Assembly (NCBI GenBank): GCA_020532215.1
Contig: JAJBBF010000103.1
Span: forward strand, 1-43,071
Length of the DNA: 43,071 bases
Direction: 5' to 3'
From: Candidatus Cloacimonadota bacterium
GTDB lineage: Bacteria > Cloacimonadota > Cloacimonadia > Cloacimonadales > Cloacimonadaceae
This document shows, in pieces, positions 20,097-42,152 of the stretch. The notes beneath the pieces were generated by a model. It was not told the origin of the DNA. It worked only from the letters and a program-made list of their open reading frames with translations, and made no database searches. How positions within the stretch are numbered: position 1 is the first letter of the stretch; every line of letters begins with the position of its first letter. The translations under genes were made by a program, and so were the position numbers.

Positions 20097-20363
20097 AAGG
20101 TTTCCTTTGAAAAGTTACTTAATTTGAGGTAAATAATTCTGTCAAGCACTATCTCGCCTGCGATAGTAAGCGGTTTCAGGCATTCCTGCCTTCTTTTGGC
20201 CAGAGTCAAAAACCCCATGGCCGTCTGCGCGAGCCGATCTTCCCGCCAGCGGTTTCAAGCCACATTATTGGAGACCTCGACCAATTCAAAAAAGAAATCT
20301 TGGGTTTGGGAGCAAAAATTGTATGCACTTAAGCAGAATTGCCTTTTATGGAGAAAACCTTGT

Positions 20364-22385
20364 ATGAATAAGATGCCCTGGCTGAGTGTGATGATTCTGA
20401 TGCTGGCTCTGCCTTTTTTCGCCCAGCTTGAAGCAGATCAAGCATTACCAACCGACCAATGGGGAGATTTTGGCCGTTTCACAGAAACACCCCCGCCAGC
20501 CGGGCCGGTTCGCCCCGTCGCAGAATTTGAACCTGCCTCTCACGTCCTGATCCGTTATCCGCTGGGCATTCCGCTCTCGCTGGTAGTTCAGCTTTCGAAC
20601 ACCGCTGATGTGATCTGCCTGGTGTCCTCCGCTTCCCAGCAAAACTCTGCTGCCAGCGCTTTCACCAACGCTGGAGTGAACATGGCCAGGGTATCCTTTC
20701 TAACTGCCGCCACAGATTCTTACTGGACCAGGGATTACGGGCCCTGGTTTATCTTCGACGGAAACGGCGATTATGGAGTGGTGGATTTCCGCTACAACCG
20801 GCCCCGGCCCAACGACAATCTCATTCCCCAGGTTTTCGCCAACCAGCTTGACCTGAATTACTGGGGCATGAACCTGTACCAGACTGGCGGCAATTATATG
20901 TGCGACGGGATCAATACCGCCGCCCAAACCACCATCGCCTACACCGAGAACGCTGGACTCAGCCAAGCCCAAGTTGATCAAAAAATGCAGGATTATCTGG
21001 GGATAGAGAACTACCATGTGTTGCCGGACCCCAACAACACCTATATCGACCACATCGACTGTTGGGGCAAGTTTTTGGCTCCGGACAAGGTTTTGATCCG
21101 CAGCGTGCAAAACTCCCACGCCCAGTACAACGCCATCGAACAGACCGCCGCCTACTTTGCCGGAACAAACTGTGCCTGGGGTTATCCCTACCGGGTTTAC
21201 CGGGTCAATACTCCCCAAAACCAACCTTACACCAATTCCCTGATCCTGAACAAGCGCGTCTTCGTGCCCATAATGAACAGCAGCTACGACGCGGCGGCCC
21301 TGCAGGCCTATCAGGACGCCATGCCGGGCTACGAGATCATCGGCGTGGCCAGTTCCGGATCCACCTCCTGGGAATCCACCGATGCCCTGCACTGCCGCAC
21401 CCACGAAATCCCGGACCAGGAGATGCTCCATATCAGCCATCTGCCCTATCACGGCGAATACGGCTACGATCCCGCCTGGGATTTCAATGCCAGCATCACC
21501 GCCCACAGCGGACAAGCGCTGATTGCAGATTCGGTCTATGTGGCCTACAGAGTGAATCAGGGCGCCTGGCAGACCGCGCTGCTGGCACATCTTGGCTCAA
21601 ATGGCTATGAGGCCACGCTTTCGGGTTTCGCTCCCGGCGATACCATCCGCTATTTCATCCACGCCGCCGATCAATCCGGACGCAGAACCGATCATCCCGT
21701 CTTCGCCGAGCTTGATCCCCACATCTTTGCCCTGGCCGCCGATACTGAGCCGCCCACGATCATACACGATCCACCCTCCTCCATAGCCAGCGGGGAACAC
21801 AGCTTTTCAGCCCTGATCACAGACAATATCCAGGTTGGCTCTGTTTATCTGCATTACAGGACCGACTCCGGCGAGACCACCTCCCTGCCCATGACGGCCG
21901 ATCCCGAAGCCCCGCCCAATTATTGGGCTGCGGATGTCGATCTGCAGTTCGAACCCGGCGCCCAGCTTTTCCATTACCAGATCGAAGCCCGCGACAACGC
22001 CAGCCCGCCCAACGCCGCCACCTACCCCTTCCCGGGCGAATGGCTGAACATCCCGATCGACCCGGTGAACATATCTGACGATAATATACTGCAACCAGAA
22101 TTATCAGCTTTGAATGCTTTTCCCAACCCCTGTCGAATCGGCCTATCCGGTTATCTGTCAATAGAATGCAAAACTGTGGTGAATTCTACACCCATGTTGA
22201 ATATTTTCAACAGCAAAGGTCAACTCGTTTTCCAGGAAACTAACCTCGGATTCCGTAAAGATGGGATCAAATACCTGTGGAACGGAATCGACCATCATGG
22301 ACACAAAGTGGCCTCCGGCGTTTATTTTCTGCGGTTGGATTGCGATGCCAAAGTACTGACCCGCAGGGTCTTAATACTGGATTAA
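20364..22385 (+). CDS. Secreted peptidylarginine deiminase, PPAD type, with C-terminal sorting domain
   Basis: Signal peptide; 'SYWTRDYGPWFIFDG', 'DFRYNRPRPND', 'YIDHIDCWGKFLAPDKVLIRSV', 'PYTNSLILNKRVFVP', 'TDALHCRTHEIP'; C-terminal 'AFPNPCR...SGVYFLRLDCDAKVLTRRVLIL'. ATG at 20364. Confidence 0.9.
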   Translation: MNKMPWLSVMILMLALPFFAQLEADQALPTDQWGDFGRFTETPPPAGPVRPVAEFEPASHVLIRYPLGIPLSLVVQLSNTADVICLVSSASQQNSAASAFTNAGVNMARVSFLTAATDSYWTRDYGPWFIFDGNGDYGVVDFRYNRPRPNDNLIPQVFANQLDLNYWGMNLYQTGGNYMCDGINTAAQTTIAYTENAGLSQAQVDQKMQDYLGIENYHVLPDPNNTYIDHIDCWGKFLAPDKVLIRSVQNSHAQYNAIEQTAAYFAGTNCAWGYPYRVYRVNTPQNQPYTNSLILNKRVFVPIMNSSYDAAALQAYQDAMPGYEIIGVASSGSTSWESTDALHCRTHEIPDQEMLHISHLPYHGEYGYDPAWDFNASITAHSGQALIADSVYVAYRVNQGAWQTALLAHLGSNGYEATLSGFAPGDTIRYFIHAADQSGRRTDHPVFAELDPHIFALAADTEPPTIIHDPPSSIASGEHSFSALITDNIQVGSVYLHYRTDSGETTSLPMTADPEAPPNYWAADVDLQFEPGAQLFHYQIEARDNASPPNAATYPFPGEWLNIPIDPVNISDDNILQPELSALNAFPNPCRIGLSGYLSIECKTVVNSTPMLNIFNSKGQLVFQETNLGFRKDGIKYLWNGIDHHGHKVASGVYFLRLDCDAKVLTRRVLILD

Positions 22386-33017: not shown

Positions 33018-33110
33018 AATGGGGGCCAGATGGGGTTTTTCCCTTTTTCAGATCGAGTGAGTGAAGCTACAGGACATTTTTTCTTTGCACAGCCTCATAC
33101 TATTTCGCCT

Positions 33111-33530
33111 TCATATATCCAAGTTTAGCCACTTGAAATTGGTCAGTTTTGAGACCATATCTTTATTATTGACCAGGTACGAGTAACCTTCAATCAGAGC
33201 TTTCTGCACATCATCAAGCGATCCATAGGCTGTATTCCTGAATTTTAGATCTCTGATCTTTGACCAAAGATGTTCGGGGGGATTCAGCTCAGGGCTATAA
33301 GCGGGCAGGAATATCAGCCGGATATTATCAAATTGCTTGAGATGATTTGTAGTATGCCACCCTGCTTTGTCCATGATGATGATGTTACGGTAATTGCGAT
33401 ATTCAATCCCCTTTATCATATGTTGGAACACACATTGGGAGTGGAAGATAATTCAGTATGGTACAGATAAGCCGAAGGGTTCAATCTTGAAAGAGTTTGA
33501 TATCGCCCAGAACTCCATCTCCGATATATA
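33111..33530 (-). pseudogene. IS630-family transposase relic
   Basis: C-terminal DDE motifs 'NIIIMDKAGWHTTNHLKQFDNIRLIFLPAYSPELNPPEHLWSKIRD'; upstream in-frame sequence looks degraded and contains a stop; no N-terminus. Confidence 0.85.
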
Positions 33531-33563: not shown

Positions 33564-36029
33564 TCAGATCTGATCCACCGTATAGCCCATACCCTCATAC
33601 CCCTTGATCCTCTTTCGGAACATCGCGGCCAGCACCGGCACCTCCCGGTCAACATAGTCATAGATCGTTACCTGGGTTTTGTTAGCATGGGCCCGGTGCA
33701 ATCGCCCCGCGTATTGCTGCAGGGTGCCCTTCCAGGAAATCGGCAAAGTTAGGAAGAGCGTATCCAGCCGGCTGTCATCAAAGCCTTCCCCGATATATTT
33801 TCCGGTTGAGATGATCACTCTTTCCTCATTATCCGGAATGGCTTGCAGCTGTTCCCTGACTGCCTTGAACTGCTTGCGGCCCATTCCTCCCCTCAGGCTG
33901 ATGATGTTTTTGGAAAAGCCCACCAGCTTGGAAGCAAAGAACTCCACGTGGGCAGTCCTCTCTGTAAGAATCAGAGGGCTTCTTCCAGCTACAATCGAGG
34001 CAATGATATCGTCCAGGATCAGCTTGTTCCGGGCCTCATCTTCGATCAGTGCCTGATAGACAGCTGTTATTCTGGCCTCTGGTTGTTGCAGGCTTTCCGG
34101 CAACTGAAAAGCAGTGTGGCGCACCTTGACCTTGTGGGTGAATGATCTCGATGCCAGCTGTGATCTGGCATCCACCTTGTAACGGATGGGACCGCACTGC
34201 ATGTACACGATCGGATGCTGTCCGTCTTTGCGGACTGGCGTGGCAGTAATGCCATAAACATACTTAGCCCTGGCTTCCTTGAGGACCTGTTCAAAGCTGA
34301 AAGCGGAGATATGGTGGCACTCATCCACGATCACCATGCCGTAATCACTCACGAATTCCTTAACTTTGCGTCCCTGATACAGGCTCTGCAAAATGGCCAC
34401 GTCGATCTTGCCGCTTCTTTTGTCCTTGCCGGCTCCCACTGCGCCAAATTCTGCGCCGTCCAGAAAGCAGCCCAGCCGTTCCAGCCACTGCTCCATCAGT
34501 TGACGGCGATGGACCACTATCAGGGTGTTGGTTTTTCTCTGCGCGATCATCCAAATGGCCACCACCGTTTTTCCAAAGGCTGTGGTCGCCGATAGAATCC
34601 CATTGTCACGCGCGAGCAGGGACTGCCCGGCCATTAACTGCTCCGGACTCAGTTTACCGATGAATTCAGCTGTTAGTGCCTCTCCAGTATATCTGAGATC
34701 CCTAACATTTGTTATGATGCCTAATTTTCCCATCAGAGCCGACAAAGCATCGCAACAGCCCCGGGGTAGGGCCAGATATTCATCGCTTTCGCCTGAGAGA
34801 TTGATGATCCTGGGTATGTTGTAGATCGGCATCCGCAGGGCTTGGGCTTTGTAAAACTCCGGATTCTGGAAGGCAGCCAACCTGATGATGTGACTCAGCA
34901 ATTTCTGCGGCAGGCCTGCTTTTTCGATGTAGATCATATTGCTGAGGACGATGTTTGCCTGGGCTGGCAGGTCTTCATATTCTTCAAATGCGGGGGTTCT
35001 ATGTTGCCAAGGTGGGATTTCCTCTTGATCCGCTTCAGCTAGCATTCCTGCTACTTTATGCCTGGCCGTGAGTTCAGAAATATACTGAGTTAATTTTGCT
35101 GGACCAATCCTCTTGAAGTTGGCCAGCCATTGCCATTGATCTTCCATCGGGCTAAGCTCATCATCCAAAAACACGCTGTTGCCCTGTTCTCTGGACTGTT
35201 TCTGGAGCGGTAGGGCGATCAGATTGCCAAAACCTCCCTTGGGCATGGAGTCCTGATTGGGGAAAAGCCTGTCGTAGGAATCAAGCCCGATCTGATGACG
35301 GCTGTCGAGCGTGGCAGTGATAATGGCTGATCCCAGTTTTCTGGCCATCCCAGCAGACACGGCTTCCTCAAAGAACATCCACACATGCGCGCCATTCCCC
35401 GATCTTGATCTCTCTGTATATGCTGGGATAGAGTGCGTAGAACAGGTTTGCTTGATGGCCAGAACATCCTCCCGCCATTCCTTCTTGTCAAAATCTATAG
35501 CCAAAAAATGGCAGGTATCGTTGTCCAGCAGGGGATAAATACCGACAACTATTTCGCCTTTCAAATGTCTGTAGATCTGGCTGGCATCGAGCGGTATGAG
35601 TTGCCTGTGTTCGCATTTGGCACAGGGGGTCTTCTTGTATTTGCCGCAAATCCCAAGTTTCCAGTCGTTCAAGCAAGCAGGTGAGTAGCCGGACCGGTTG
35701 TTCTTGCCGCTCCACCGGATCGCAAAAACATCCTCTCGTCCGCGAAAGAGGCTTCGAAAGAGGGCAACCTTTTCCTGGGGAGAAGACTGATTATTGATGG
35801 ATTCCACATGAGGTGAAGATGGAATGTCTGATGTCCTGGCCAATTTCTCTGGTTTTGCCCGTTCCTCCATGTCCATTGCAACACGATCACCCTTCCTGAG
35901 CTCAGCCAAATTCTCTTTGAGCCTCCCGTTTTCTCGCTCCAGGATGGCAATCCTTTCCAAAGCTTTCTTCAATTCCTCATCGTTGCTATCGTGATCATCT
36001 CTCATGCTTATATCCTTAGGCGCATCCAA
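33564..36029 (-). CDS. AEP primase-SF2 helicase fusion, TOTE conflict system-like
   Basis: N-terminal coiled coil; Cys cluster 'CLNDWKLGICGKYKKTPCAKCEHR'; AEP motifs 'FLAIDFDKKEW' and 'ERSRSGNGAHVWMFFE'; 'GGFGNLIALPLQ'; helicase 'SATTAFGKTVVAIWM', 'VDECHH', 'GITATPVRKDG', 'QQYAGRLHR'. Confidence 0.85.
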   Translation of the reverse strand: MDAPKDISMRDDHDSNDEELKKALERIAILERENGRLKENLAELRKGDRVAMDMEERAKPEKLARTSDIPSSPHVESINNQSSPQEKVALFRSLFRGREDVFAIRWSGKNNRSGYSPACLNDWKLGICGKYKKTPCAKCEHRQLIPLDASQIYRHLKGEIVVGIYPLLDNDTCHFLAIDFDKKEWREDVLAIKQTCSTHSIPAYTERSRSGNGAHVWMFFEEAVSAGMARKLGSAIITATLDSRHQIGLDSYDRLFPNQDSMPKGGFGNLIALPLQKQSREQGNSVFLDDELSPMEDQWQWLANFKRIGPAKLTQYISELTARHKVAGMLAEADQEEIPPWQHRTPAFEEYEDLPAQANIVLSNMIYIEKAGLPQKLLSHIIRLAAFQNPEFYKAQALRMPIYNIPRIINLSGESDEYLALPRGCCDALSALMGKLGIITNVRDLRYTGEALTAEFIGKLSPEQLMAGQSLLARDNGILSATTAFGKTVVAIWMIAQRKTNTLIVVHRRQLMEQWLERLGCFLDGAEFGAVGAGKDKRSGKIDVAILQSLYQGRKVKEFVSDYGMVIVDECHHISAFSFEQVLKEARAKYVYGITATPVRKDGQHPIVYMQCGPIRYKVDARSQLASRSFTHKVKVRHTAFQLPESLQQPEARITAVYQALIEDEARNKLILDDIIASIVAGRSPLILTERTAHVEFFASKLVGFSKNIISLRGGMGRKQFKAVREQLQAIPDNEERVIISTGKYIGEGFDDSRLDTLFLTLPISWKGTLQQYAGRLHRAHANKTQVTIYDYVDREVPVLAAMFRKRIKGYEGMGYTVDQI

Positions 36030-36245: not shown

Positions 36246-36286
36246 TTTCACTTGATTCTCTATAGGCAAACTCAAATCTCACTGCC

Positions 36287-36299
36287 TGGCTCCCAGCAT
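36287..36299 (+). repeat. 13-bp direct repeat, right copy
   Basis: TGGCTCCCAGCAT, identical to 32936-32948. Confidence 0.85.
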
Positions 36300-37464: not shown

Positions 37465-38064
37465 ATGCGCGACCTCATCCAAAACTCATTCACCGCAGCC
37501 GGCCGCGGCCTGAAAGCCTTTTTGGCAAATGAAGAAAACTTCGCCGCCATCGAAAAGGCGGCCCGGCTGATCGCTGACTGCTTTGCCCGGGGCGGCAAGG
37601 TGATCGCCTTTGGCAACGGCGGCTCGATGTGCGATGCCATGCACTTCGCGGAAGAATTCACGGGCCGCTTCCGCCGGGACCGCAAAGCCCTGCCCGCCAT
37701 CGCTTTGTCCGATCCCAGCCAGCTTACCTGCGTGGGCAACGACTACGGCTTCGAGCAGGTCTTCGCGCGCGGCGTGGAAGCTTTCGCCCGGCCGGGTGAC
37801 GTGGTATTGGGGATATCCACCAGCGGCAATTCAGACAACGTGATCAAGGGTTTGGAAGCCGCCAGGCTACTCGGCTGCCATACCCTCGCCCTGCTGGGCA
37901 AAAACGGAGGCAAGATCGCCGGGAGCTGTGGCCTGGAAATCATCGTGCCCGGCGAGCACAGCGACAGGATCCAGGAACTGCACACCCTGATCCTGCACAT
38001 CATCATCGAAGGTGTGGAGGAATTGCTGTTCGCGGATGAGGCTTCCGGAGGCATAAACACATGA
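37465..38064 (+). CDS. gmhA: SIS-domain phosphoheptose isomerase (GmhA-like)
   Basis: 'GGKVIAFGNGGSMCDAMHFAEEFTGRFRRDRKALPAIAL', 'GISTSGNSDNVIKGLEAA'. Confidence 0.88.
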   Translation: MRDLIQNSFTAAGRGLKAFLANEENFAAIEKAARLIADCFARGGKVIAFGNGGSMCDAMHFAEEFTGRFRRDRKALPAIALSDPSQLTCVGNDYGFEQVFARGVEAFARPGDVVLGISTSGNSDNVIKGLEAARLLGCHTLALLGKNGGKIAGSCGLEIIVPGEHSDRIQELHTLILHIIIEGVEELLFADEASGGINT

Positions 38065-39095
38065 AAAGAATAACTTTGACCCTGATGATATTGCTTGCTG
38101 CGGCACTCGCCTGCGGACAGGGCAACTATTACGACGCCGTGATTGACCTCACCGGACAGGAACTTTATACCGCGCTGCACGCTCTGATCTCCACCAATAC
38201 CTACAGCAGTTACGACGGCGCCAAGGTCTTCCTCTTTCAGCAGCTGGACAACCACAACGGCTATGTGACCTGCATCTATACCGGTTACGAACATTACGTA
38301 GGCTACGATTACTACGGCTCCAGCGATCCCAACACCGAGCACACCTATGCCCAAAGCTGGTTTTCCTCCAGCGAATCCACGCGCAAGAAAGCCGACCTGC
38401 ACCACCTCTTCCCCTCAACCATGCAGGTGAACAGCTCCAGGGGCAACTATCCTCTCTTCACCGTGGCCAACCACGCCGCGGCGGATGTGTATTACAACGA
38501 CACCCCCTGGCAGAGCTTCCGGGGCCTGAGTTCCAACGGCTACACGGTGTTTGAACCGGCCGATGAATCCAAGGGCAATATCGCCCGCGCCCTGCTCTAT
38601 TTCAACACCCGCTATTACGACAGCCTCACCCAGCAAAACGTGAACATGATCCCGGACCTGGCGCAGTGGCATTACGACGATCCGCCCGACGCGGCTGAGA
38701 TCGCGCGCAACAGCGCCATCCAGGGTTTTCAGACCAACCGCAACCCCTTTATCGACCATCCGGAATTCGTGGGCCGCATCTGGGGCGGATCGCCGGTTCA
38801 GGACGAAAGCGTGGTCCCGGGCGCGGAACTCCGTTTGGAACAGGTCTGGCCGAATCCTTTCAGTGACTCCACCACCCTGGCTGTCCAAAGCAAGGAAGCC
38901 CTGCAGGCCAAGGTTTGCGTTTATGATGTAAAGGGCCGGCAAGTGAAGGCTTGGGAACAAAACCTGCCCCGGGGTAGTTCAGAAATATCCTGGAACGGCA
39001 GGGATGAGAGGGGCCTGAAAGCCGCTCCCGGAGTGTATCTGATCCAAGTGCGGACAGCCGGGCAAAGCCTCAGCGCCAAAGTGCTGCTGAACTAA
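38061..39095 (+). CDS. Secreted endonuclease I family nuclease with C-terminal sorting domain
   Basis: 'NTEHTYAQSWF', 'KADLHHLFPSTMQVNSSRGNYPLF'; C-terminal 'VWPNPFSDSTTLAV...APGVYLIQVRTAGQSLSAKVLLN'. Confidence 0.9.
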   Translation: MKRITLTLMILLAAALACGQGNYYDAVIDLTGQELYTALHALISTNTYSSYDGAKVFLFQQLDNHNGYVTCIYTGYEHYVGYDYYGSSDPNTEHTYAQSWFSSSESTRKKADLHHLFPSTMQVNSSRGNYPLFTVANHAAADVYYNDTPWQSFRGLSSNGYTVFEPADESKGNIARALLYFNTRYYDSLTQQNVNMIPDLAQWHYDDPPDAAEIARNSAIQGFQTNRNPFIDHPEFVGRIWGGSPVQDESVVPGAELRLEQVWPNPFSDSTTLAVQSKEALQAKVCVYDVKGRQVKAWEQNLPRGSSEISWNGRDERGLKAAPGVYLIQVRTAGQSLSAKVLLN

Positions 39096-39492: not shown

Positions 39493-39520
39493 TTGACATC
39501 TGTCCGCGCCTGGTTATTTT
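39493..39520 (+). promoter_or_regulatory. Candidate clpB promoter
   Basis: TTGACA-N16-TATTTT immediately downstream of the CIRCE-like site. Confidence 0.55.
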
Positions 39521-39540
39521 GTCTTCAAAGAGGAGGCGCC

Positions 39541-42099
39541 ATGAACGCACAGAAATTTACTTTGAAGAGCCAGGAAACCATCCAGGCGATGCAGACCCTG
39601 GCAGAAGAATACGGACATCAGGAGATCCGCGACCTGCATCTGCTGGCCGCGCTGCTGCGGCAGAGCGATTCGCTGGTGCTGCCGGCCCTGCAAAAGCTGG
39701 AGGTGAACACCTCCGCGCTTACCGCCGAGGCAGAAAACGCGCTGAAAAAACTGCCCCGGGTTAGCGGAGCCCAGGTTTACCTGGCCCAGGATACTCTGGA
39801 CGTGCTGCATCAGGCGGAACGCGACGCGGAGCGGCTGCAGGACGATTATATCAGCCTGGAGCATCTGCTGCTGGCGCTGCTGGCCAAAGGCAAAGAGGCC
39901 GCCAAATTGCTCAAGGCCGCGGGAGCTTCTTCGGAGAAGCTGCTGCTTGCCTTGAAAGAACTTAGAGGCAACCAGCGGGTGACGGACCAGAACCCCGAGG
40001 CCAAATTCCAGGCCCTGGAAAAATACGCCCGCAACCTCACGCGCCTGGCCCGGCAGGAAAAGCTGGACCCCGTGATCGGGCGCGACGATGAGATCCGCCG
40101 CAGCGTGCAGATCCTTTCCCGCCGCCGCAAGAACAACCCCATCCTGATCGGCGAACCGGGGGTGGGCAAAACCGCCATCGTGGAAGGCCTGGCCCGCCGC
40201 GTGGTGGCTCGCGACGTGCCGGAAAACCTGAAGGACAAGGAAATTTTGGAACTGGACATGGCGGCGCTGCTGGCCGGGGCGAAGTTCCGCGGCGAGTTTG
40301 AGGAACGCCTCAAAGCCGTGCTGGCCGAGGTGGAAAAATCCGACGGACAGATCATCCTTTTCATCGACGAGATCCACACCGTGGTGGGGGCCGGGGCCGC
40401 CGAAGGCGCCGTGGACGCCTCGAACATGCTCAAACCCGCTTTGGCACGGGGTTCGCTGCACTGCATCGGCGCCACCACCATCTCTGAATACCGCAAACAC
40501 ATCGAGAAGGATCCCGCCTTCGAACGCCGCTTCCAGCCTGTGCTGGTGCAGGAGCCCAGCGTGGAGGAGACCATCTCCATCCTGCGCGGCATCCGCGAGA
40601 AATATGAGGTGCACCACGGCGTTCAGATCACCGACACAGCCTTGGTTTCCGCCGCCGTGATGAGCGACCGCTATATCGCCGACCGTTTTTTGCCGGACAA
40701 GGCCATCGACCTCATCGACGAGGCCTGCGCCAAGCTGCGCATGGAGATCGACAGCCTGCCCGTCGAGCTCGACGAGATCGAACGCAAGCTGCGCCAGCTG
40801 GAGATCGAGCGCCTCTCTTTGGCCAAGGAGGAGGACCCGCTGTCCAAACAGCGGCTGGAGAAAGTGGCGGCCGAGATCGCGCAACTGGGAGAGGAGCAGA
40901 AAGCCCTGCGCCTGCGCTGGGAGAACGAAAAGAAAGGTTTTGAACGCACCCGCGAACTGCGCGCGGAGATCGATGCCCTCAAAAGCCAGGCCGACAAGGC
41001 TGAGCGCGAAGGCGACCTGGAAACCGTTTCCAAACTGCGTTACGGCAGCATCAAGGAAAAAGAAAAGGAACTGGCTGAACTCACCCAAAGCCATGATCAA
41101 ACCGAAGCCGCTGATCCGCTGATCAAGGAAAAGGTGGACGAGGAACTGATCGCGGAGGTGGTATCCAAATGGACCAACATCCCGGTGTCTAAACTGGTGC
41201 AGAGCGAGATGAGCAAGTTGCTGGGGCTGGAGGAGATACTGGCCCGGCGCGTGATCGGCCAAAGGGAAGGGATCACCGCCCTGGCCAACGCCATCCGCCG
41301 TTCCCGCAGCGGCCTCAGCGACAGCAACCGGCCCATCGGCTCCTTCATCTTTCTGGGCCCTACCGGAGTGGGCAAAACGGAACTGGCCAAGACCCTCGCC
41401 GCCTACCTCTTCGACACCGAAAAAGCCATGCTGCGCCTGGACATGAGCGAATTCATGGAGAAACACTCGGTGGCCCGGCTCATCGGCGCTCCCCCCGGCT
41501 ATGTGGGTTACGACGAAGGCGGCTACCTCACCGAAGGCGTGCGGCGACGTCCCTACAGCGTGATCCTCTTTGATGAGATCGAAAAAGCGCATCCGGACGT
41601 GTTCAACATCCTGCTGCAGATCCTCGACGACGGCCGGCTCACCGACGGCAAGGGCCGCACCGTGGATTTCCGCCACAGCGTGATCATCATGACCTCGAAC
41701 ATCGGCTCGCAGGAGATCTATGAAGCCAGCGACCTCGAAGCCCTCCGGCCCCGGCTGCTGGCCACCCTCAAGCAGTATTTCCGGCCGGAATTCCTGAACC
41801 GCCTGGACGACATCATCATCTTCCACCGCCTCAGCCAGGCCAACATCCGCGAGATCGTGAAGATCCAGCTGACCCAATTGGCCGGCCGCGTGCGCGAAAA
41901 AGGCATCGAACTCAGCTGGACGGAGGCCCTGGTGGACCACATCGCCGCTGCCGGCTACGATCCCCAGTTCGGTGCCCGGCCCCTCAAACGCCTGATCCAG
42001 AAAGACCTGGAGGACGCCATGGCCAGGGCCGTGCTGAGCGGACAAGCCGGACAGCAGATGAAACTGGATTATCAGAACGGTAAAGTGATCATCACCTGA
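39541..42099 (+). CDS. clpB: ATP-dependent chaperone ClpB
   Basis: Clp-N domain, two AAA modules ('[15 protein letters not shown]', '[15 protein letters not shown]'), coiled-coil middle domain, '[12 protein letters not shown]'. ATG at 39541 after GAGGAGG. Confidence 0.97.
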
Positions 42100-42122
42100 T
42101 CGCGATACCTGAATAGACATGC

Positions 42123-42152
42123 CGCCCCGAAACAACATCGGGGCGTTTTCTT
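42123..42152 (+). terminator. Rho-independent terminator after clpB
   Basis: CGCCCCGA-AACAACA-TCGGGGCG followed by TTTTCTT. Confidence 0.85.

Follow-up and report, generated by a model that had tools for sequence, protein, structure and literature searches.

The primase-helicase gene and its surroundings

The window, by which we mean the whole stretch of 43,071 nucleotides that was analysed, comes from a Candidatus Cloacimonadota bacterium and contains an 821-aa open reading frame (ORF) on the minus strand at 33564-36029. The gene stands alone between gpsA and an adenosine deaminase gene, both on the plus strand, and directly downstream of it lies a piece of an IS630 transposase. With these three as neighbours no nuclease or partner gene adjoins it, in agreement with an earlier interpretation made from the DNA alone (the sequence-only reading). 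The ORF opens with TTG at 36029. An in-frame ATG at 36005 is the equivalent of the start of its relatives and is preceded at 7 nt by the Shine-Dalgarno sequence AAGGA, so the coding sequence probably begins at this ATG and encodes 813 aa. The features of the locus are listed in Table 1.

Table 1. Features of the primase-helicase gene and its flanks (window positions; residues are numbered on the 821-aa ORF)
Feature	Positions	Strand	Basis
AEP primase-SF2 helicase, probable coding sequence	33564-36005	-	Start of relatives and AAGGA; the mechanical ORF extends to TTG 36029
N-terminal long helix, predicted coiled coil, residues 12-53	35871-35996	-	AlphaFold2 model
AEP (Prim-Pol) catalytic domain, residues 86-315, including C119/C128/C136/C139	35085-35774	-	PF22548; Foldseek, 7nqd
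Mixed alpha/beta region N-terminal to the helicase motor, residues 357-444	34698-34961	-	AlphaFold2 model
SF2 helicase motor of XPB/UvsW type, residues about 459-821	33567-34655	-	ResIII; 6p4f; fold
IS630-family transposase remnant, C-terminal third	33111-33431	-	DDE_3 7.9e-14; NF033545 positions 221-291 of 299
Dispersed 93-bp palindrome, left edge of the foreign segment	32936-33028		At least 40 genomic places
Remnant of a palindrome-repeat arm, right edge, beside the promoter of the adenosine deaminase gene	36282-36299		Direct repeat

The IS630 remnant is present as a single copy in the genome. The palindrome at the left edge is near-perfect, is built of ~11-bp repeats (e.g. CCGTATTGATC) and recurs at 84-100% identity in at least 40 places of the 1.9-Mb genome and also in genus mates; it has the appearance of a transcription terminator or of a REP- or MITE-like element. 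In one genus-mate locus (L204) the palindrome unit is repeated in a long tandem at positions 1-130. Homology to the gpsA locus of a genus mate (G024) stops at 33045, and in two genus mates the palindrome or its units lie immediately 5' of the adenosine deaminase gene. In the nearest genus mates the palindrome or its units thus flank both gpsA and the adenosine deaminase gene, each at its own locus. A clean empty site with gpsA next to the adenosine deaminase gene was not found, and the two genes were not adjacent in the relatives examined, which indicates that the primase-helicase gene lies at a synteny breakpoint and is not a clean insertion. The GC3 of the gene is 0.60, compared to 0.65-0.82 in the neighbouring genes. 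No defence genes were found among the ten larger ORFs of the window that were scanned.

Domain architecture of the protein

The sequence-only reading had described a coiled coil, a Cys cluster, the primase motifs DFD and SGNGAH and the helicase motifs AFGKT, DECHH and QYAGRLHR, and all of these were found in the ORF. The primase motifs are DFD (D179/D181) and SGNGAH (S210-H215), the Cys cluster is formed by Cys119, Cys128, Cys136 and Cys139, and the helicase motifs are AFGKT (GKT at 486-488), DECHH (569-573), TAT (595-597) and QYAGRLHR (772-779). The N-terminal helix of 42 residues fits a coiled coil and is variable in sequence across relatives. An HMM search with the model of the AEP-TOTE domain, proposed as a check by the same reading, returned a significant match (PF22548, residues 86-315, E=2.2e-98; score 329 bits, the cut-off being 27), and the helicase half matched ResIII (3.5e-21) and DEAD (8.3e-11) in Pfam. 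PADLOC assigned the primase half to PrimPol (PDLC01465, E=2.8e-94). Together with the matches in fold described below, this establishes the fusion of an archaeo-eukaryotic primase (AEP) to an SF2 helicase that had been proposed.

The solved structures nearest in sequence by phmmer were the archaeal XPB-II 6p4f (1.2e-19) and the CAPP Prim-Pol domain (1.9e-15). An AlphaFold2 model built from a 53-sequence alignment had a pLDDT of 85.6. Foldseek matched the primase domain of the model to the CAPP Prim-Pol 7nqd with a TM-score of 0.81 by target length. For the helicase part it found XPB and T4 UvsW, with XPB alignments of about 440-500 columns. In the model, the mixed alpha/beta region preceding the motor is probably the counterpart of the N-terminal accessory domain of XPB.

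GKT and DECHH were kept in 105/105 aligned family members. Conservation of the primase residues was read from invariant columns of the 53-sequence alignment, as a strict regular-expression count is too rigid for the primase motifs; D179, S210, G213, H215, D253 and Cys119, Cys128 and Cys139 were invariant, while D181 and Cys136 varied very little. From these residues the protein looks catalytically intact, and primase, polymerase and helicase activities are predicted from its motifs and fold.

Distribution and mobility

Genomes with the gene number 2 of 13 in the genus, 7 of 50 in the family and 11 of 125 in the phylum Cloacimonadota. A housekeeping role shared by the whole phylum, an outcome that the sequence-only reading had named as refuting its own proposal, is thereby excluded. 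The genome carrying the window has one copy, and the neighbours differ at every Cloacimonadota copy. Some copies in the phylum are broken, by an IS21-type insertion (L179), by a frameshift (L180) and by reduction to an N-terminal fragment (L181). The window protein is 63-67% identical to its relatives and keeps every catalytic residue.

Outside the phylum, relatives were confirmed at a minimum of 362 places in GTDB species genomes. At a coverage of at least 80%, 89 of 72,556 plasmid records carry the family, conjugative or mobilisable plasmids being among the carriers. No phage record (n=50,697) reached 80% query coverage, and the phage matches listed covered the helicase half only; an origin as a phage replication protein was rejected on this basis. 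Matches were also found in 872 of 5426 complete E. coli genomes, where the gene has a fixed place in genomic islands, following YfjI and Gp2 in a module of integrase, HTH, YfjI (DUF3987) and Gp2. The copy in strain EDL933 is frameshifted and sits at the map position of Z1568, from which we infer that it is Z1568 itself. Collectively, these results show that the gene is horizontally transferred, is found on plasmids and islands, is patchily distributed and often broken, and has a low GC content.

Neighbours of the relatives

No conserved partner gene was found, the commonest neighbour cluster being present at 9 of 98 loci. Some families nevertheless recur among the 149 immediate neighbours, namely Schlafen/AlbA_2 (SLFN_AlbA_2, 7), AAA_14 and DUF4143 (7 and 5) and Fic (6), and HipA proteins were also seen. 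SLFN_AlbA_2, AAA_14/DUF4143 and Fic each occurred fewer than twice among 122 genes lying more than 3.5 kb away. The AlbA_2 neighbours are mostly from Clostridia and the Fic neighbours mostly from Deltaproteobacteria, and these counts therefore reflect few independent events. Within Cloacimonadota, known defence genes lie beside two of the four intact relatives. One (L176) adjoins Shedu SduA (E=6e-97) and Hma HmaC (E=0), and the other (L177) adjoins a type I methylase, a specificity subunit and an HEC-06/DUF262 protein.

A gene overlapping the upstream end of the primase-helicase gene was found only at a few beta- and gammaproteobacterial copies and one clostridial copy. In the Azotobacter and Cupriavidus plasmids this gene encodes ~181 aa without a Pfam match and overlaps the AEP-helicase start (L226:7451-7996, and the C-terminal part of L233:7133-7990); it clusters with a neighbour at locus L080. 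This gene is possibly a lineage-specific partner.

Nuclease tails in one branch of the family

The layout was compared with that of relatives for a missing nuclease, another check put forward earlier. Most of the highest-scoring chromosomal relatives from outside Cloacimonadota are 950-1000 aa long and have at the C-terminus a further domain of about 150 aa, which the window protein lacks. In the 75 proteins sampled, this domain is a PLDc_2 domain (Pfam) with the motif HxKx4Dx6GSxN. The H-K-D residues are intact in 57 of the 75 tails and at least one of them is lost in the other 18; in 14 tails, mostly of Clostridia, the catalytic His is replaced while the domain is kept (L031, L034, L058, L062, L067, L069, L076, L081, L089, L090, L091, L094, L095 and L096). 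In a Verrucomicrobiales relative (L047:7770-10871, plus strand) a DUF559 (Vsr-like) domain takes the place of the PLD domain, which by its sequence is a putative independent nuclease fusion.

In a mixture-model tree, the PLD-bearing proteins formed one clade with support of 100/100 and the nuclease-less Cloacimonadota proteins were its sister. In a quick tree, all PLD-bearing proteins fell on one side of a single branch, rows truncated at a contig end excepted. Like the Cloacimonadota proteins, the plasmid copies found in alpha-, beta- and gammaproteobacteria, Actinomycetota and Campylobacterota lack the nuclease. The trees are unrooted and sample the 80 best matches plus selected plasmid copies, and within them a single gain of the PLD domain, rather than its loss elsewhere, would be the simplest reading. 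The sequence-only reading had called the protein a stand-alone or reduced version. Stand-alone describes it well, but reduced does not, since the nuclease-less form is widespread and the PLD-bearers are a single clade. Recent truncation of a PLD tail by the IS630 element was likewise rejected, because all intact Cloacimonadota relatives share the same end point and group as a clade separate from the PLD-bearing one. In literature other than the founding AEP-family (2005) and TOTE (2022) papers, we found no description of the single-origin PLD tail, its decay in some Clostridia or the DUF559 replacement.

Relation to known systems

The family carries the TOTE name in both Pfam and RefSeq. TOTE stands for TPR, OB, TBP and Effector according to the part of PMC12458937 that quotes Aravind/Iyer 2022. 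The window protein has the TOTE-type effector domain, and shares this domain model with TOTE systems, but the TPR, OB and TBP components are missing. TBP (PF00352) was found in none of the nine Cloacimonadota carrier genomes, including that of the window (80% complete), whereas archaeal controls were positive. Of 42 other carriers, 41 likewise lack TBP, and the one that has it is an archaeon, in which TBP is ordinary. No TPR or OB (cold-shock) gene flanks the window gene, and neither type is among the 25 commonest families of the 149 nearest neighbours. The earlier assignment to the TOTE primase family therefore holds for the domain and fails for membership of the conflict system: an AEP-TOTE domain is present, a TOTE system is not.

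The gene instead encodes a stand-alone AEP-helicase of a kind already described, namely the Z1568-like AEPs and the non-CRISPR CAPP-helicases, of which the window protein is a new member. AEP motifs I-III and the fused SF2 helicase are present, and the protein matches over its full length, with about 44% identity, the E. coli protein that RefSeq names after the AEP-TOTE domain. The E. coli Z1568-like family has the same AEP-helicase layout, and its homologue in O157:H7 EDL933 lies in an OI-48-type island, the island to which Z1568 maps (PMC3064760). A classification quoted in PMC5862659 assigns the Z1568-like AEP family to the Prim-Pol clade. The E. coli copies belong to the island module described above, whereas the window copy stands alone.

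CAPP_A type 3 proteins ('CAPP-helicase') and their non-CRISPR relatives occur in mobile elements (PMC8211822). The window protein has in common with them a Prim-Pol followed by a helicase, mobile-element carriage and the fold match to 7nqd, but it has no TPR or RT domain. An association with CRISPR was rejected, as no CRISPR-like array was found in the window or at related loci and no Cas1 in the genome carrying the window. The AEP-SF2-PLD proteins of Bacteroidota, Desulfobacterota, Bacillota and others are 44-50% identical over the AEP and helicase and differ by the PLD tail. Archaeal XPB with its nuclease Bax1 shares the helicase fold, and the pairing with a nuclease is paralleled in the relatives of the window protein. 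The window protein differs in being fused to a primase, and no Bax1 gene was seen adjoining it.

Proposed function

No report on the function of the AEP-TOTE family was found in a literature search. We prefer to read the protein as a self-contained, horizontally transferred anti-invader enzyme, a proposal whose chances of being right or wrong we consider evenly balanced. It is based on the intact domains and fold, the patchiness, the broken copies, the low GC3 and the synteny breakpoint between dispersed repeats. It is also based on the defence genes beside two Cloacimonadota relatives, the recurrent SLFN_AlbA_2, AAA_14 and Fic neighbours, the nuclease tails and the lack of a full-length phage copy. 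Against it stand the window copy itself, with no defence gene among the ORFs scanned, the few independent AlbA_2 and Fic events and the loss of HKD residues in 18 of the 75 PLD tails.

CAPP Prim-Pols make DNA primers that are begun with GTP and then extended (PMC8211822). In the proposed mechanism, the translocase would load onto branched or replicating foreign DNA and open it, and the Prim-Pol would prime the exposed strand de novo with DNA primers, an activity that related CAPP enzymes show in vitro. Unscheduled priming and displacement would then upset replication of the invader. A PLD nuclease would have been added to the core a single time in the sister branch, and a DUF559 nuclease in one other lineage, either of them serving to cut the DNA once it is open. 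Action of the window copy would require neither a nuclease nor any TPR, OB or TBP module. A bolder form, in which the protein is a single-gene immune enzyme with priming itself as the weapon, the XPB-like motor bringing the Prim-Pol to invader forks that are poisoned by unscheduled primers, seems to us rather unlikely. If it were true, the nuclease, which the majority of the relatives sampled possess, would be an optional add-on, acquired once as PLD and once as DUF559, and not the original effector. The family is common, both in E. coli and in other species, and bears the TOTE label in RefSeq despite the missing partners. Its separation from TOTE and the confinement of the nuclease to one branch turn a vague annotation into testable questions, namely whether a lone primase-helicase protects cells and whether the nuclease matters.

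A serious rival to defence is that the protein helps mobile elements, priming and unwinding for the replication, mobilisation or post-transfer second-strand synthesis of a carrier plasmid, island or satellite, and that the Cloacimonadota copies are strays of lost elements. AEP-helicase fusions are known that act as plasmid replicases, pRN1 ORF904 among them (PMC4538821), and bacterial AEPs are largely element-borne (PMC5862659). The copies on conjugative or mobilisable plasmids fit this role, and the fixed E. coli island place next to YfjI/DUF3987 and Gp2 suits element replication and speaks against defence. However, only 89 plasmid records and no phage record carry the family at the required coverage, most chromosomal copies have no adjoining replication or mobility module, a fused nuclease would be odd for a replicase, and two Cloacimonadota copies adjoin defence genes. 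On balance we hold this role to be possible but doubtful.

An accessory role in host fork repair, combining XPB/UvsW-like fork remodelling with PrimPol-like repriming past lesions, is suggested by the resemblance of the helicase fold to XPB and T4 UvsW and by the part that Prim-Pols play in damage tolerance (PMC10345425). One copy adjoins sbcD/sbcC-like genes and another is near a umuC-like gene, as judged by sequence. We nevertheless consider this role improbable in view of the presence of the gene in so few genomes of the phylum, the frequent pseudogenes and the relatives with fused nucleases. It is very improbable that the window gene is an inactive remnant stranded next to a transposon fragment; the IS630 remnant downstream and the broken copies elsewhere in the phylum are set against a full-length ORF with a good ribosome-binding site and all catalytic residues kept at 63-67% identity. 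A true TOTE effector with TPR-OB and TBP partners encoded elsewhere in the genome, as the Pfam and RefSeq name would imply, is scarcely credible given the missing TBP and recurring neighbours that include no TPR, OB or TBP gene.

Other genes in the window

The plus-strand gene at 38061-39095 encodes a protein of the endonuclease I family whose C-terminal part has FlgD-like and Por secretion domains, and by these domains its product is probably an exported nuclease. It adjoins a SIS-domain gene and the adenosine deaminase gene, with which it possibly forms a nucleic-acid scavenging cluster. A plus-strand gene at 20196-22385 encodes a Porphyromonas-type peptidyl-arginine deiminase domain and a C-terminal type IX sorting-like domain. 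Two long ORFs on opposite strands overlap almost fully, at 39493-42099 (plus) and 39514-42138 (minus). The former is ClpB-like; the latter, which matched nothing in Pfam, is probably spurious.
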